Origin: Ramlibacter lithotrophicus
Lineage (GTDB): Bacteria; Pseudomonadota; Gammaproteobacteria; Burkholderiales; Burkholderiaceae_C
Reading direction: 5' to 3'
NCBI RefSeq assembly: GCF_012184415.1
Contig: NZ_VTOX01000008.1
Coordinates: 124,001 to 188,000, forward strand
Length of the DNA: 64,000 bases
Shown: positions 4,616-41,795 of the stretch, one piece after another
How positions within the stretch are numbered: the stretch's first letter is position 1
Layout: each line of letters starts with the position of its first letter
Position numbers and translations under genes: made by a program
Notes under the pieces: generated by a model
Databases searched by the model: none
The model's input: the letters and a program-made list of their open reading frames with translations, nothing else
Told to the model about the DNA's origin: nothing

Positions 4616-4822
4616 TTACCAGAGCGCGGAGTCGCGCAGTTCCTGCAGCTTCTGGCGCTGGCGGCGGCGCGCCACGAAACGCCAGCGCGCCACGACGACA
4701 GTGACGGCCAGCGCGGCGAGCACCCATTCGACATGCGTCGCGCCGCCGAGGACCGACGGCGCGAAGAACACCGCCGCCAGGGCCAGTGCGGCAACGCAGA
4801 GGAGAGTGATCACGATTTTCAT
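4616..4822 (-). CDS. Small membrane protein, unknown function
   Basis: A 68-residue protein with two hydrophobic segments (residues about 2-20 and 30-47) and a basic C-terminal tail rich in Arg and Gln (ARWRFVARRRQRQKLQEL). The ATG at 4822 is preferred over an upstream TTG. It sits 75 bp upstream of the MFS gene on the same strand and could share its transcript. No family is recognised. The downstream tail pattern is common in small inner-membrane proteins with a cytoplasmic coiled helix. Confidence 0.5.
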   Translation of the reverse strand: MKIVITLLCVAALALAAVFFAPSVLGGATHVEWVLAALAVTVVVARWRFVARRRQRQKLQELRDSALW

Positions 4823-5043
4823 GTCGCGCAAGAGGCAGGCGTCGGGGCAGCAGAACGAGGATGTTCAGTCGTTATACGAACAAGGGGAGGTGGGAACTGT
4901 AGCGTTTTCCCGAAAGCGTTGCAGGATGGGGACTCTCGGCGTGCGGGATTGACGCGCGCGTGACTTATTGCCGAGCGCGCGCCACCCGTGCCGAGCATGC
5001 CGATTGCCTATGATTGCCCGACCATGACAAGGGACAAGGCAGC

Positions 5044-6615: not shown

Positions 6616-7926
6616 CTAAAGGTTCTCCAGCATCTCGCACGTCACCAGCACCACGCCGTTGCCGGTGCGGTGGAAGCGCTTCGCGTCCATCTCCGCGTCC
6701 TCGCCGATCACCATGCCCTCCGGGATCCTGCAGCCGCGGTCGATCACCACCTTCGTGAGGCGGCAGTTCCGCCCGATCTCGGTATTGGGCATGATCACCG
6801 CCTGCGTGATGGTGCAGCCCGAGTGCACCCGCACGCTGGAGAACAGCACCGCCTCGCGCAGGACCGAACCAGACACGATGCAGCCGCCCGACGCGATGAC
6901 GTTCGCCGTCACGCCGTGGTTGCCGCGGATGTCGGGCACGAACTTCGCCGGCGGCAACTGCTCCTGGTAGGTCCAGATCGGCCACTCGCGGTCGTAGATG
7001 TTCAGCTCCGGCATGTCCGACGCGAGGTCCAGGTTGGCGGCCCAGAAGGCGTCCACCGTGCCGACGTCGCGCCAGTACGGCCGGTCGCGCGTGGCGTACG
7101 GCACGCTCGACAGGTTGAGCGGATGGGCCAGCACGTTGTCCTCGCGCACCACGCGCGGGATGATGTTCTTGCCGAAGTCGTGCTCGGACGTCTCGTCCGC
7201 GAGATCCTGGGTCAGCAGCTCGTAGAGGTAGTCGGCGTTGAAGACGTAGATGCCCATGCTGCCGAGCGCGCGGTCCGGCTTGCCGGGGATCGGCGGCGGG
7301 TCCTTCGGCTTTTCCAGGAAGGCCGTCACGCGCCGGTGCTCGTCGACGTGCATCACGCCGAGCGCCGTGGCTTCCATCCGCGGCACCTCGATGCAGCCGA
7401 CGGTACAGCGGCTGCCGCTTTCCACATGGTCCAGCAGCATCAGCGAGTAGTCCATCTTGTAGACGTGGTCGCCGGCCAGGATGAGGATGTACTCGGGACC
7501 GTACGACTTGAGGATGTCGATGTTCTGGTAGACCGCATCGGCTGTGCCCCGGTACCAGTAAGCCTCGTTGACGCGCTGCTGCGCCGGCAGCAGGTCGATG
7601 AACTCGTTGGCCTCGCCCCGCAGGAAGTTCCAGCCGCGCTGCAGGTGACGCAGCAGCGAGTGCGACTTGTACTGCGTCAGCACGCCGATGCGGCGGATGC
7701 CCGAGTTGATGCAGTTCGACAGCGCGAAGTCGATGATGCGGAACTTGCCGCCGAAGTAGACGGCCGGCTTGGCGCGCTTGTCGGTCAGCTCCATCAGGCG
7801 CGATCCCCGTCCGCCGGCCAGTACCAGCCCCACGGTCCGGTTGGGCAACTGCCGTGCCAGCATCAAACGGTCGGCGGTCCCCGCCACGCTGTTGCCTTGT
7901 GCATTCTTGCTTTGCTGGTCGACCAT
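6616..7926 (-). CDS. glgC: Glucose-1-phosphate adenylyltransferase
   Basis: A 436-residue enzyme making ADP-glucose and pyrophosphate from ATP and glucose-1-phosphate, the committed step of bacterial glycogen synthesis. Hallmarks are GGRGSRL (38-44) with RAKPA (51-55) for nucleotide binding, GTADAVYQN (127-135), GDHVYKMDY (152-160), FLEKPKDPP, and a C-terminal left-handed beta-helix. Its length matches E. coli GlgC (431). No glgA, glgB or glgP lies nearby. It is followed downstream by an R1 repeat and preceded by a DedA gene on the same strand. Glycogen storage often rises under phosphate limitation, which fits the neighbouring island, but no Pho box was found upstream. Confidence 0.95.
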
Positions 7927-37649: not shown

Positions 37650-38432
37650 ATGAATGCTCCAATGACCGCCGGGCCCGACGCCGCCAAGCTGGCCGTGCGC
37701 GACCTGAACTTCTACTACGGCAAGTTCCACGCGCTGCGCGACATCAACCTCGAGATCGCGGAAAAGAAGGTGACTGCGTTCATCGGCCCGTCCGGCTGCG
37801 GCAAATCGACGCTGCTGCGCACCTTCAACCGCATGTTCGAGCTGTACCCGGACCAGCGGGCCGAAGGCGAGATCGTGCTGGACGGCGAGAACCTGCTGAC
37901 GTCGAGACAGGACGTGGCGCTGATCCGGGCCCGCATCGGCATGGTGTTCCAGAAGCCGACGCCGTTCCCGATGTCGATCTACGACAACATCGCGTTCGGC
38001 GTGCGGCTGTTCGAGCGCCTCAACGAGGCCGACATGGACGAGCGCGTCGAGTGGGCGCTGCGCAAGGCAGCCCTCTGGGACGAGGTCAAGGACAAGCTGG
38101 GGCAGACCGGCTCCGGCCTGTCCGGCGGCCAGCAGCAGCGGCTGTGCATCGCCCGCGGCATCGCGATCCGGCCCGAGGTGCTGCTGCTCGACGAGCCGTG
38201 CTCGGCGCTGGACCCCATTTCCACCGGCAAGATCGAGGAGCTGATCGTGGAGCTGAAGCGCGACTACACGGTGGTCATCGTGACGCACAACATGCAGCAG
38301 GCCGCGCGGGTCTCGGACTACACGGCCTACATGTACCTGGGCAACCTGATCGAGGTCGGCGAGACCGAGCAGATCTTCTTCAAGCCCAAGCGGCAGGAGA
38401 CCGAGGACTACATCACCGGCCGTTTCGGCTAA
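37650..38432 (+). CDS. pstB: Phosphate ABC transporter ATPase PstB
   Basis: A 260-residue ATPase. Walker [28 protein letters not shown]-loop [18 protein letters not shown], signature [15 protein letters not shown] and Walker [13 protein letters not shown] are all typical of PstB. It energises phosphate uptake and, with PhoU, signals phosphate sufficiency to PhoR. Its stop codon TAA directly abuts the 270-bp repeat that separates it from phoU; normally pstB and phoU lie side by side. Confidence 0.96.
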
Positions 38433-38702
38433 GGAAGCTCTGAATGAATCGCGTCGCGCGCGCTCGAGACGAAAGCGGGATGATTTGTCCGCCAAATTCC
38501 TGGCCGGTGCTGGTTGCACCGGCCAGGAATTTGGTGGGCAAAGGGCCGGCTTTTCGTCCGAGCCCTACGGGACGGCGCTTTTCCGGGCGACCTGGGGTGT
38601 TACGAGACCAGGCAAGCCGTCCAGGCTTGCCTTGGGTCTCGCGCCTACCATCTCATCCCGGAAAAGCACCGTCGCGCACGGCGGGATTCGTTCAGAGCTT
38701 CC
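38433..38702 (+). repeat. 270-bp structured element with terminal inverted repeats, copy A
   Basis: The ends are GGAAGCTCTGAA and TTCAGAGCTTCC, a perfect 12-bp inverted repeat. Inside are two long hairpins: one closed by GACGAAAGC and GGCTTTTCGTC around a 19-bp stem ending in GCCGGTGC/GCACCGGC, the other closed by GACGGCGCTTTTCCGG and CCGGAAAAGCACCGTC around AGGCAAGCC/GGCTTGCCT. A second copy, 88% identical by hand count and exactly as long, lies at 41526-41795 in the opposite orientation. There is no clear target duplication. It resembles a MITE or large REP-type element. Confidence 0.88.
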
Positions 38703-38716
38703 TTTAGGAGCACGAC

Positions 38717-39421
38717 ATGGCTGACAAGCATCTTTCCACCCAGTTCGATTCGGAGCTCGGCTCGCTGTCGTCCCGCGTGATGGAACTCGGCGGGCTGGTC
38801 GAATCCCAGATCCGCCAGGCGATCGACTCCCTGGCCAACTTCAACGAGGAGGCGGCGCACCAGGTGCTCGAGAACGAGGCGCGGGTGAACCAGATGGAGG
38901 TCGACATCGACCGCGAGCTGTCGTCGGTGATCGCCCGGCGCCAGCCGACGGCGCGCGACCTGCGCCTGCTGATGGCGATCTCCAAGACCACCGCCAATCT
39001 GGAACGGGTCGGCGACGAGGCCGAGCGGATCGCGCGCATGGTGCGGTCGATCATCGAGAAGAGCGGCGCGGTGCGGGCGCTCCCCGCCAACGAGCTCTCG
39101 GTCGCCGCCGACCTCGCGTCGCGGCAGCTGCGCAAGGCGCTCGACGCCTTCGCACGCCTGGACACGCGCGCCGCGCTCGCCATCATGAAGGAGGACGACC
39201 TGCTGGACCAGGAGTTCAACGGCTTCGTGCGCAAGCTGATCACCTACATGATGGAGGACCCGCGCACGATCTCGAGCAGCCTGGACCTGCTGTTCGTCGC
39301 CAAGGCGATCGAGCGCATCGGCGACCACGCCAAGAACATCGCGGAATTCATCATCTACGTGGTCAAGGGCGCCGACGTTCGCCACACCTCGATGGAAGAC
39401 ATCGAGTCGGCGTTGAAATAG
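38717..39421 (+). CDS. phoU: Phosphate signalling protein PhoU
   Basis: A 234-residue helical protein with two PhoU repeats. Each carries the metal-cluster motif: ISKTTANLERVGDEAERIARM and AKAIERIGDHAKNIAEFI. PhoU joins PstSCAB to PhoR and switches the Pho response off when phosphate is plentiful. It follows the inserted 270-bp element after 14 bp; AGGAGC before the ATG gives a good ribosome site. It begins the phoU-phoB-phoR block that lies between the two copies of the element. Confidence 0.96.
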   Translation: MADKHLSTQFDSELGSLSSRVMELGGLVESQIRQAIDSLANFNEEAAHQVLENEARVNQMEVDIDRELSSVIARRQPTARDLRLLMAISKTTANLERVGDEAERIARMVRSIIEKSGAVRALPANELSVAADLASRQLRKALDAFARLDTRAALAIMKEDDLLDQEFNGFVRKLITYMMEDPRTISSSLDLLFVAKAIERIGDHAKNIAEFIIYVVKGADVRHTSMEDIESALK

Positions 39422-39428
39422 CCGGGCA

Positions 39429-40157
39429 ATGAAGCAGCCGCCGCGCATCCTGCTCGTCGAGGACGAACCCGCCATCGCCGAACTGATTTCGGTCAATCTG
39501 CGGCATAGCGGCTTTCTTCCGGTCTGGGCAGCGGAGGGCGCGGCGGCGCAGCGCGAGATCGACAACGCGTTGCCTGACGCCATCCTGCTGGACTGGATGC
39601 TGCCGGGCCCCAGCGGCATCACGCTCGCCAGGCGCTGGCGCGCCGACCCGCGCACGCGCGCCGTGCCGATCCTGATGCTCACCGCCAAGGGTGACGAGCC
39701 GGACAAGGTGGCGGGGCTCGACGCCGGCGCCGATGACTACATCACGAAGCCGTTCTCGACCCAGGAACTGCTCGCGCGCATCCGGGCGGCGCTGCGCCGG
39801 CGCGCGCCGGAGCGGACCGAGGATGTCGTGTCCGTCGGCGAGCTGACCCTTGACGGCGCGACGCACCGCGTCAGCTGGCGGGGCCGGCCGCTGAAGGTGG
39901 GGCCGACCGAGTTCAAGCTGCTGCAGTACCTGATGAAGCATCCGGAGCGCGTCCACAGCCGCCAGCAGTTGCTGGACAAGGTGTGGGGCGACCACGTGTT
40001 CATCGAGGAACGCACGGTGGACGTGCACGTGAAGCGCCTGCGCGAGGCGCTGGGCGCGGAGGCCGGCGCCATGGTGGAGACCGTGCGCGGTGTCGGTTAC
40101 CGCGTGACCGCGCAGCCGCAGGCGACGACCGCCGCCCCGCGGCAGCGCGCCGGCTGA
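39429..40157 (+). CDS. phoB: Phosphate regulon response regulator PhoB
   Basis: A 242-residue OmpR-type regulator. The receiver domain has Glu11-Asp12, phospho-acceptor Asp55 (ILLDWMLPG) and the conserved Lys in DDYITKPFS; the winged-helix DNA-binding domain is at about 132-228 (VGPTEFKLLQYLMKHPERVHSRQQLLDKVWG, RTVDVHVKRLREAL). PhoB dimers bind the 11-bp repeats seen upstream of many genes in this window. The gene lies 7 bp after phoU and 6 bp before phoR. Confidence 0.95.
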   Translation: MKQPPRILLVEDEPAIAELISVNLRHSGFLPVWAAEGAAAQREIDNALPDAILLDWMLPGPSGITLARRWRADPRTRAVPILMLTAKGDEPDKVAGLDAGADDYITKPFSTQELLARIRAALRRRAPERTEDVVSVGELTLDGATHRVSWRGRPLKVGPTEFKLLQYLMKHPERVHSRQQLLDKVWGDHVFIEERTVDVHVKRLREALGAEAGAMVETVRGVGYRVTAQPQATTAAPRQRAG

Positions 40158-40163
40158 GCGGCC

Positions 40164-41492
40164 ATGGCGGTGCGCCTGCTTTTCTTCCTGCTGTTCCTCG
40201 GGGCCGGCGGGGGCGCCGGCTGGTGGAGCGGCGGCAGCCGGGGCGCGCTGGCCGGATTGGCGGCGGGCGCCGTGCTCTGGTTCATGTTCGAGACGGCGCG
40301 TGGGTTGCGGGTGCTGCACTGGCTGCGCCGCGGGCCGGCCGCGGCTGCGCCGCGGCTCGGCGGTCTGTGGGGCGAGGCGTGCGATCGCATGCAGCGGGCG
40401 CTGCTGCAGCGCGAACGCGAAGTGCAGCAGGCGCAGCGCCGCCTGGACGAGTTCCTGTCCGCCATCCAGCGTTCGCCCAATGGCGTCGTCCTGCTGGACC
40501 CGCAGGGTCGCATCGAATGGGCGAACGACACGGCGGCGGCCCAGTTCGGCCTCGATCCCCAGCGCGACCTGCAGCAGCACATCGTCAACCTGGTGCGCGA
40601 GCCCGATTTCAACGCGTACTACCAGGCGCGCAGCTTCGCCGCCGACATCGTCATCGCCGCGCCTGGCAGTTCCGCCGCCCGGCCGCGAAAGCTGTCGGTC
40701 CGCCTGCACCCGTACGGCGAGGGCCGGCTGCTGCTGCTGGCGCGCGACGTCACGGCGGTGGAGCAGGCCGAGGTGATGCGCCGCGATTTCGTCGCGAACG
40801 TTTCGCACGAGATCCGCACGCCGCTGACGGTGCTCGCGGGTTTTGTCGAGACCTTGCAGACGCTGGAGCTGCCGGCCGATGAACGGGGCCGCTACCTGCA
40901 GATGATGGCGCAGCAGGCCCAGCGCATGCAGACGCTGGTCGCCGACCTGCTGACGCTGTCGCGCCTGGAGGGCAGCCCGCTGCCCGGCGCCGGCGAGTGG
41001 ACGGCTCTGGCGCCGCTGCTGGGCCAATGCGAGCAGGAGGCGCGCTCCGTTGCCCTCGCCTTGGGCAAGACGCTCGACCTGCACTTCGAGCCCGCTCCCG
41101 GTGCCCGGATCGGCGGCGTGGCCAGCGAATTGCTCAGCGCGTTCTCCAACCTCGTGAGCAACGCCGTGCGCTACACGCCCGACGGCGGCAGCGTCACGGT
41201 GGGGGCCCGGGTGCTGCCCGGCGGGCGCCTCGAGTTCACGGTGCGCGATACCGGCCCGGGCATCGCGGCGGAACACATCCCCAGGCTGACCGAGCGCTTC
41301 TACCGCGTCGACCGCAGCCGGTCGCGCGAGACCGGCGGCACCGGCCTGGGACTGGCGATCGTCAAGCACGTGGTGCAGCGCCACGGCGGCGAGCTGAGGA
41401 TCGAGAGCCGGCCCGGGGCCGGGTCCACGTTCGCGATCGAGCTGCCGGCGGCGCGGGTGCGCACCGAGCCGGCGGCGGCGCTTCAGGGATAA
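40164..41492 (+). CDS. phoR: Phosphate regulon sensor kinase PhoR
   Basis: A 442-residue histidine kinase. One or two membrane segments occupy residues 4-45, a PAS domain about 96-200, the phospho-accepting His215 lies in FVANVSHEIRTPLTVLAG, and the ATP-binding part shows SNAVRYTPDGG, DTGPGIAAEHIPRLTERFYRVD and GGTGLGLAIVKHV. This is the standard PhoR plan. It phosphorylates PhoB when PstSCAB-PhoU reports low phosphate. The second copy of the 270-bp element starts 34 bp after its stop. Confidence 0.95.
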   Translation: MAVRLLFFLLFLGAGGGAGWWSGGSRGALAGLAAGAVLWFMFETARGLRVLHWLRRGPAAAAPRLGGLWGEACDRMQRALLQREREVQQAQRRLDEFLSAIQRSPNGVVLLDPQGRIEWANDTAAAQFGLDPQRDLQQHIVNLVREPDFNAYYQARSFAADIVIAAPGSSAARPRKLSVRLHPYGEGRLLLLARDVTAVEQAEVMRRDFVANVSHEIRTPLTVLAGFVETLQTLELPADERGRYLQMMAQQAQRMQTLVADLLTLSRLEGSPLPGAGEWTALAPLLGQCEQEARSVALALGKTLDLHFEPAPGARIGGVASELLSAFSNLVSNAVRYTPDGGSVTVGARVLPGGRLEFTVRDTGPGIAAEHIPRLTERFYRVDRSRSRETGGTGLGLAIVKHVVQRHGGELRIESRPGAGSTFAIELPAARVRTEPAAALQG

Positions 41493-41525
41493 TCGAAACC
41501 AGCCGGGCTCGTCCCGGAAAGCTCG

Positions 41526-41795
41526 GGAAGCTCTGAACAAATCCCGCCGTGCGCGACGGTGCTTTTCCGGGATGAGATGCAAGGCGCCAGACCGAAGGCA
41601 AGCCTGGGCGGCTTGCCTGGTCTGGTAACGCGGCAGGTCGCCCGGAAAAGCGCCGTCCCTTCGGGCTCGGACGAAAACGGGCCCTTTGCCCACCATGTTT
41701 CTGGCCGGTGCGTCCAGCACCGGCTGCGAAACCTGGCGGACAAATCATCCCGTTTTCGTCTCGCGCGCGCGCGACGCGATCTGTTCAGAGCTTCC
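41526..41795 (-). repeat. 270-bp structured element with terminal inverted repeats, copy B
   Basis: Reverse orientation relative to copy A at 38433. The 12-bp ends are identical. Changes against copy A keep the pairing: CGAGACC/GGTCTCG becomes CCAGACC/GGTCTGG and GACGAAAGC/GGCTTTTCGTC becomes GACGAAAACG/CGTTTTCGTC. Its right end GCTTCC merges with the first helix of the TPP riboswitch. It fills most of the 432 bp between phoR and thiM. Confidence 0.88.

Follow-up and report, generated by a model that had tools for sequence, protein, structure and literature searches.

The 64,000-nucleotide stretch of the Ramlibacter lithotrophicus contig NZ_VTOX01000008.1 analyzed here (positions 124,001 to 188,000; hereafter, the window) carries two copies of a folded 270-bp element on either side of the genes phoU, phoB and phoR. 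Copy 1 (38433..38702, + strand) is located between pstB and phoU, and copy 2 (41526..41795, - strand) between phoR and thiM-thiE, inverted relative to copy 1. We consider it likely that they belong to a superfamily of non-coding elements of ∼270 bp that resemble miniature inverted-repeat transposable elements (MITEs) and are moved in trans by several transposases of the IS5 superfamily of insertion sequences (ISs). An earlier sequence-only reading of this DNA had raised the idea of a MITE moved in trans, and it is now well supported by the dispersed copies, the IS5-type ends and target duplications observed across the family, the empty pstB/phoU site in relatives, and ISs elsewhere with equal or near-equal ends. 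From these features we infer the act of transposition.

Both window copies have the same perfectly inverted 12-bp ends (GGAAGCTCTGAA...TTCAGAGCTTCC) and are 88.9% identical in an end-to-end alignment, the longest identical run being 40 bp. The inverted orientation, the common ends and the ∼12% divergence described in the sequence-only reading were thus all confirmed. The predicted shape, which extends nearly from end to end, is not a single hairpin. It comprises a terminal stem (P1) and two long arms, A and B, with a mini hairpin (CCC-NNN-GGG) between them. For searches in other genomes we used R1, a covariance model of arm B, and counted matches at E up to 1e-5. R1 matches copy 1 at 38561-38680 (119.7 bits) and copy 2 at 41548-41667 (118.3 bits).

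Copy 1 starts directly after the TAA stop codon of pstB and ends 14 bp before phoU. We compared this junction with those of relatives in the genus, in 58 of which phoU was matched; the 29 best loci were taken and 28 could be read across the junction. The gap from the pstB stop to the phoU start is 4-23 bp in 26 of these 28 and 91 and 108 bp in the other two, compared to 284 bp here, and no R1 match was found in the 29 loci. The check proposed earlier, whether relatives have pstB and phoU side by side, therefore gave no element in 28/28 readable relatives. The two wider junctions (L130 and L143; L and G numbers denote loci and genomes) hold other GC-rich sequence without an R1 match, and the junction may be a favoured site for repeats.

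Copy 1 is matched at 14 places in this genome, the two window copies among them: seven are full copies (two in the window), one is enlarged (L044, 335 bp), three are truncated (L045, L046 and L047) and three are stem-only versions of 87, 52 and 52 bp (L048, L049 and L050). Three diverged members (L219-L221) are present besides. The full copies are 4-13% distant from copy 1, which has BLAST matches in 9/60 genus genomes, this genome counted. The sequence-only reading had allowed for ordinary leaders present at both places in all relatives, or for a sequence without other copies; the relatives lack the element, and 12 other places in the genome hold full, enlarged, truncated or stem-only copies. 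Because all 28 readable relatives are without the element at pstB/phoU and further genomic copies exist, the comparison indicates that the window elements are insertions and not leaders.

The sequence-only reading also called for a transposase with the same ends, and in this respect the outcome was negative: our search of this genome for an IS with GGAAGCTCTGAA ends gave 33 places at up to one mismatch (control 16), and no pair spaced like an IS. Every one of the 20 exact matches falls on the end of an element copy; of the other 13 places, which carry one mismatch, 6 fall at copies and 7 stand alone. The sole DDE_Tnp_1 match in this genome is decayed and has no related ends. The statement that no transposase is near held for the two Pfam families checked, DDE_Tnp_1 and Y1_Tnp, which have one genome match each, both on another contig. 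Given that the search yielded no IS with GGAAGCTCTGAA ends and that copy 1 and the other full copies are 4-13% apart, the element family in this genome looks stranded.

The ends vary widely across the family (GGAAGCTCTGAA, GGATGCTCTGCACAAC, GGGACCCTCTGCATAAC, GGCCTGTTCACAC, TGTCCTGTCCC, GGAGCCTGCGCGG, GAACGTGTTTGCGATC and others). The length of the bounded elements is 264-275 bp in 34/36, the other two being 193 and 405 bp. We tallied 91 different elements under two entry rules, 16/20 end positions matching and a length of 240-345 bp; four of them fell in no class of terminal inverted repeats (TIRs). Elements with GA[AG][CT][CG]TG ends have an exact 3-bp duplication in 9/23 cases, always TNA (2.6 on average under permutation, with 0.05% of 2000 permutations reaching the observed count). 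In the GG-end class, an exact CTAG duplication was observed in 14/61 (permuted mean 6.2; 0 of 2000 permutations as high), and TGTCC ends are flanked by a CTAG duplication in 2/3; the strict duplication rule misplaces a few boundaries, so that these counts are low. The type of target duplication goes with the type of end.

Target preference also explains the location of the elements, 42/91 of which are placed at the stop codon of a reading frame 150 codons or more in length. Targeting of stop codons as such was considered and rejected, as the proportions resemble those of control sites (GG class, 28/57 versus 32/65 control CTAG sites; TNA class, 2/14 versus 678/7412). About half of the control CTAG sites end a frame of this length in these loci, and an IS with a CTAG preference would often hit stop codons, restoring them through the duplication. 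Copies insert close to stop codons of operon genes or directly at them, and in the present case the neighbours are the phosphate regulon and a thiamine riboswitch.

Candidate partners were found among ISs of the IS5 superfamily when IS and element ends were compared by the best match over 16 end bases. The ends of L062, an IS of the same genus (IS5_4 type, DUF772; TTAG duplication; frameshifted), agree at 16/16 with those of the elements L189 and L105. The ends of L261, L268 and L069 agree at 16/16 with L205 and L203, those of L272 at 15/16 with L210, and those of L270 (TGA duplication) at 14/16 with L223 and L212. As a background, the IS types L267 and L259, which fit no element compared, reach just 11 and 12 of 16. 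Judged on open-frame pieces, the IS5_3 model NF033580 and DUF4096 fit L270, L272 and L261, and the IS5_4 model NF033581 and DUF772 fit L062; L268 is also matched by DUF4096, and L069 was picked up through DDE_Tnp_1. The core of the element, as represented by the R1 match, was absent in 16/16 transposase-bearing loci scanned, so that the shared interior of a deletion derivative was not observed. Since the ends match while R1 is absent from these loci, the elements and these ISs have their ends in common, and not their insides. In this the elements are unlike IS5-superfamily MITEs; the usual view is that MITEs are deletion products tied to one parent IS.

Several observations weigh against movement by these transposases. 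The flanks of the window copies are inexact (CTAA/TTTA and CCGG/CGAG) and show no exact duplication, for which decay is a possible reason; under the strict rule, 14/23 and 47/61 family copies also have no exact duplication. The good fits of IS and element ends, which cover four TIR types, lie between different genomes and none was seen within one genome; the sole same-genome pair read, GAACCTGTTCAAAGTC versus GAACCTGTTTACGATC in G124, agrees at 12/16. A DUF4096 transposase match is missing in 9/16 carrier genomes searched, among them G248 with its 41 copies, where no end pair is spaced like an IS among the matches listed. The ends of L062 agree with those of copy 1 at 12/16, its transposase is frameshifted, and this genome gave no IS with the ends of the window copies. 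The missing partners may have been lost or may belong to a different type, or part of the reading may be wrong.

If the elements are MITE-like as proposed, transposases made elsewhere would cut the element and insert it at CTAG/YTAR or TNA sites. In addition, the core would stay while both ends are exchanged together, so that one core lineage could use different transposases. The elements that suggest such an exchange are four copies on the Curvibacter scaffold NZ_KQ483358.1 (L114, L121, L122 and L123). Their inner 222 bp differ by 2-7% and their ends by 34-55%, the ends being complementary within each element. A second Curvibacter genome shows 8% inner difference and 36% at the ends (L075 and L097), and L097 and L123, from the two Curvibacter genomes, have a common end type with ends 11% different. 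In contrast, the seven full copies of the R. lithotrophicus genome differ by 0-9% at the ends and by 2-15% inside.

We plotted the TIR classes on a tree of the core built without the ends from 106 columns and 85/91 rows (six rows with cores over 140 bases were left out, and six rows are without a class). The classes require 10 changes on this tree, where the least possible number is 4 and the shuffled mean is 36.5. From these numbers, the ends usually follow descent and would nevertheless have changed repeatedly. L127, with GGCCTGTTCACAC ends, is placed inside a well-supported group of TGTCC elements; its alignment with L029 contains several changes and gaps at both ends, and further ones are scattered along the element. 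We tentatively propose, with rather less than even confidence, that a folded core with an exchangeable shell of ends, both swapped at once, passes between transposases within a genome, across Burkholderiales and into other Gammaproteobacteria. The mechanism of the exchange would perhaps be fold-back copying, or the placement of the core inside another palindromic MITE. If true, such an element, with a constant core and changeable ends, would live as a hyperparasite on several transposases; this would explain how it could persist longer than any single IS, and fold-back end exchange would become open to testing.

The evidence for exchange is weakened by several points. The core tree has 106 columns, 36/80 of its inner branches are open, and long branches meet in it, so that the count of changes is rough; the starred branches alone force 1-4 changes per TIR class. 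The four Curvibacter copies are without clear duplications, and no IS was found for their individual ends. One alternative is that these are ordinary IS5-family MITEs whose core is common by descent; their ends would have diverged by slow drift alongside the partner ISs, with no exchange at any time. The clustering of the TIR classes on the core tree is in line with such drift, as is the fact that many TIRs are graded variants of GGnnnnTCTG. However, slow drift does not readily account for four elements on one scaffold with near-identical cores and ends 34-55% different, nor for the second Curvibacter genome and the end type common to L097 and L123. We therefore regard drift as possible and on balance unlikely.

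In another alternative, what moves is the inner hairpin pair on its own, as a cassette similar to a dimer of repetitive extragenic palindromic (REP) sequences that inserts into the centres of palindromes, including stem-only MITEs, and the different ends are its different hosts. Single-arm and stem-only elements do exist, and extra hairpins are present in L023, L031 and L044. Stem-only versions were found here (L048, L049 and L050, the 87- and 52-bp sequences mentioned above) and, by eye, at L254 in G124, and single-arm versions at L254, L255, L292 and L295; REP dimers inside palindromes are described in PMC3733652, and the lack of clear duplications at the Curvibacter ends would also fit. The stem-only versions are, however, equally explicable as deletions. 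The outer ends match IS5-superfamily TIRs with fitting duplications, which makes the outer boundary the boundary of transposition in many copies. We found no enzyme tied to the core, which is present at 0/16 Y1_Tnp loci. A mobile inner cassette thus appears rather improbable. By eye, the single-arm element at L254 (1-240, G124:C2) lies between 40-bp flanks inverted to each other, in the middle of a longer palindrome, and a stem-only hairpin with GGCCTGTTCACAC ends stands beside it.

The folded structure itself was supported by several measures. The folding energy of copy 1 is -198.6 kcal/mol, compared to -110.2 +/- 5.7 in 200 shuffles (z -15.4), and that of copy 2 is -185.8 kcal/mol. In an alignment of 34 relatives, 91.4% of the cells are paired and 82/111 pairs show two-sided change; none of 500 shuffles equals any of five structure measures. 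Pairing falls to about 45% when partner columns are shifted by one. The covariation score is 0.349 versus 0.127 in shuffles that take no account of relatedness. One-sided changes are few among close copies, and two-sided changes arise with growing divergence.

In copy 1 (+ strand), the helices of the alignment structure were mapped by hand onto the fold. The left side of P1, including the terminal repeat GGAAGCTCTGAA, occupies 38433..38461 and its right side, ending TTCAGAGCTTCC, 38674..38702 (helix 1). Arm A is the long hairpin at 38462..38563 (helices 2-4). The mini hairpin P3 (CC-CTAC-GG; helix 5), in which both C-G pairs are invariant in 34/34, occupies 38564..38571. Arm B, the long hairpin with the conserved bulged motif GTTnC ... 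GCCT, extends over 38572..38673 (helices 6-7). The two inverted bulged hairpins and the mini hairpin, which make up the core, would form a four-way junction together with the terminal stem. The stretch of copy 2 that holds arm A (41655..41771, +) is matched by the arm-B model on the strand opposite to the element (32.7 bits, E 8.3e-5), and because of this match the two arms can be read as inverted relatives of each other. Consistent with this, the better alignment partner of arm A is the reverse-complemented arm B in 73/91 elements and arm B as it stands in 13, with no difference in 5. The arm-B model also matches the reverse strand of copy 1 arm B, weakly (27 bits). In many Ramlibacter-type elements, the arm A loop TGGAC is by eye complementary to the arm B loop GTCCA, as for a kissing contact; this complementarity is missing in other types, and in either window copy one of the two loops is altered.

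Such covariation could point to a functional regulatory RNA that serves as leader, attenuator or processing site in the pstB-phoU gap and ahead of thiM, and the + strand does fold better than its complement in 27/34 elements. Over pairs predicted from either strand, however, G-T and A-C mismatches number 136 and 155, and over pairs found from both strands 56 and 67. As the two kinds are about equal, a single transcribed strand is not favoured. Strand-specific selection on RNA was rejected on this ground, the + strand advantage being offset by the mismatch counts, and we claim no RNA function; equal mismatches would fit fold-back correction as well as selection, whether on the DNA or on transcripts in both orientations. 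The element is also missing at pstB/phoU in 28/28 readable relatives and at the thiM locus of six relatives, copies are located at other sites as well, and no Rfam family fits. The Rfam scan gave weak MIR918 matches (best E 0.01, 31.6 bits versus a gathering score of 268) and a thiamine pyrophosphate (TPP) riboswitch beside copy 2, and nothing else. We consider a regulatory RNA at these two places very unlikely. By eye, the elements have no conserved reading frame.

The sequence-only reading had offered a large REP-like element as its other option. The part of this that stood is the likeness of the core to the two inverted bulged hairpins of REP dimers; the part that did not concerns the REP tags, which were not seen, and the REP-associated tyrosine transposase (RAYT), which is not required. 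The corresponding alternative is a REP doublet forming hairpins (REPIN) moved by a RAYT. In its favour are the hairpin pair and a Y1_Tnp gene in all of the first 20 carrier genomes sampled; in the family sample, Y1_Tnp was found in 85/104 carriers versus 137/195 non-carriers (p 0.037). Against it, 19/104 carriers have no Y1_Tnp match and 16 Y1_Tnp loci are without the core, and the association with RAYT was set aside as not required. Target duplications and IS5-type ends are, to our knowledge, not expected of RAYT products. A RAYT-moved REPIN is therefore highly improbable. This genome has one RAYT-like Y1_Tnp gene (G000:C3:388382-388711), with no core beside it, and 222/299 family genomes have a Y1_Tnp match.

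In further comparison with REP dimers and REPINs, both have two inverted imperfect hairpins, and PMC3733652 describes the same nesting in palindromes: the CGTC-1 REP dimers of Halothiobacillus neapolitanus are within 41-bp palindromes starting GGGaaGCTT, and cyanobacterial REP dimers are within longer palindromes. The elements differ from REP sequences in that their arms are about 100 nt (REP, 20-40 bp) and their ends are of IS5 type with target duplications; no GTAG or CGTC tag is conserved at the hairpin foot in the element alignment, as judged by eye.

The likeness to IS5-superfamily MITEs is closer. The elements are short, have no transposase gene, carry TIRs of IS5 type or near to it and CTAG or TNA duplications at the level of the family, and occur sporadically as dispersed copies with empty sites. 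Unlike those MITEs, one folded core is common to several TIR and duplication types, and the ends vary within a genome. Polaromonas belongs to the Comamonadaceae, and for this reason the MITE of Polaromonas sp. JS666 (Mattes et al. 2008, cited in PMC10969869) is possibly a member of the family. Another structured bacterial MITE is QMITE2 of Coxiella, for which a very stable stem-loop is predicted at the transcript level (PMC10969869); QMITE2 is described there with one TIR pair, whereas the ends here vary over one core.

The family is widely distributed. A pattern for the tip of arm B gave 56 loci in named genomes, 49 of which were judged real by context; the seven dropped as chance are L090, L095, L106, L107, L110, L115 (which passed the simple regular expression) and L126. 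The real loci are from Ramlibacter, Curvibacter, Hylemonella, Hydrogenophaga, Caenimonas, Piscinibacter and Rubrivivax, and further loci come from other Burkholderiales, Comamonadaceae and betaproteobacterial records and from metagenome-assembled genomes named only Proteobacteria. R1 matches were found in 104/299 genomes (63/141 genera) of the family and in 23/369 genomes (18/272 genera) of the class, 21 of the 23 being outside the family; the match numbers per genome are lower bounds, 12 or 9 candidates at most having been scored in each. The elements are thus present in about one third of the sampled family genomes, and yet match no Rfam model. We read 36/41 model-found loci, the remaining five being cut short or differently arranged. 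The GTTnC bulge motif is present in 35 of the 36, GCC(T/C) in 36, the mini hairpin in 35 and the tip GTCCAG in 6, in a set where R1 itself favours such matches. Some genomes hold many copies: one TIR pattern at up to one mismatch gave 41 forward and 41 reverse matches in the complete genome G248, and the TIR pattern gave 165 forward and 166 reverse matches in the draft G124, with 0 for the control pattern in both. By eye, the elements of the genus members G008, G012 and G056 are the same as in named Ramlibacter records.

Among viral contigs, a single hit of the tip pattern was put down to chance from its context. A looser core pattern, from which both window copies deviate so that it has no match in the window, gave seven viral contigs; by eye, L290 and L294 hold the whole two-arm element, L292 and L295 hold arm-B-only elements, and L293 looks like chance. 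The putative viral contig L295 (IMGVR_UViG_3300002938_000002) has two arm-B-only elements (4780-4835 and 7213-7268) with GGAACCTCTGAA ends, the second having TTAA on both flanks by eye. Copy 1 had no match in plasmids, and one Comamonas plasmid was matched by another family member. Among the open-literature titles, abstracts and listings searched, no published description of the element family was found.

At the locus, gene names follow NCBIfam matches: pstB (37650..38432, TIGR00972) is the upstream neighbour of copy 1, followed after the element by phoU (38717..39421, TIGR02135), phoB (39429..40157, TIGR02154) and phoR (40164..41492, TIGR02966), all on the + strand. These names bear out that the elements part pstB from phoU, and phoR from the thiamine operon thiM-thiE. 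A consensus scan found no promoter-like site in the elements and one in phoU (expected 0.1); two terminator-like sites were found where 2.0 are expected.

The sequence-only reading had further suggested that recombination between the copies would invert phoUBR, and that each copy may alter read-through from pst to pho genes; both effects would be possible. An invertible switch that works in this way would draw on the inverted orientation of the copies, their 89% identity and the identical run of 40 bp. Against it, the pstB-phoU order is the ancestral one and no inverted allele was seen in assembled genomes; a thiM region of useful length is available in just 7/59 genus genomes, this genome counted. 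A switch of phoUBR is thus extremely improbable, and the two insertions simply happen to bracket these genes.

Beside copy 2, the TPP riboswitch of thiM-thiE (RF00059; 41787..41883, +) begins within the last 9 bp of the element. It scores 50.6 bits, under the gathering score of 54.3; the six relatives with a thiM region, whose loci are without an R1 match, reach best scores of 57.7 to 67.5 bits. From the position and score of the model match, the insertion of copy 2 has probably weakened the P1 stem of the riboswitch, and thiamine control of thiM may be impaired.

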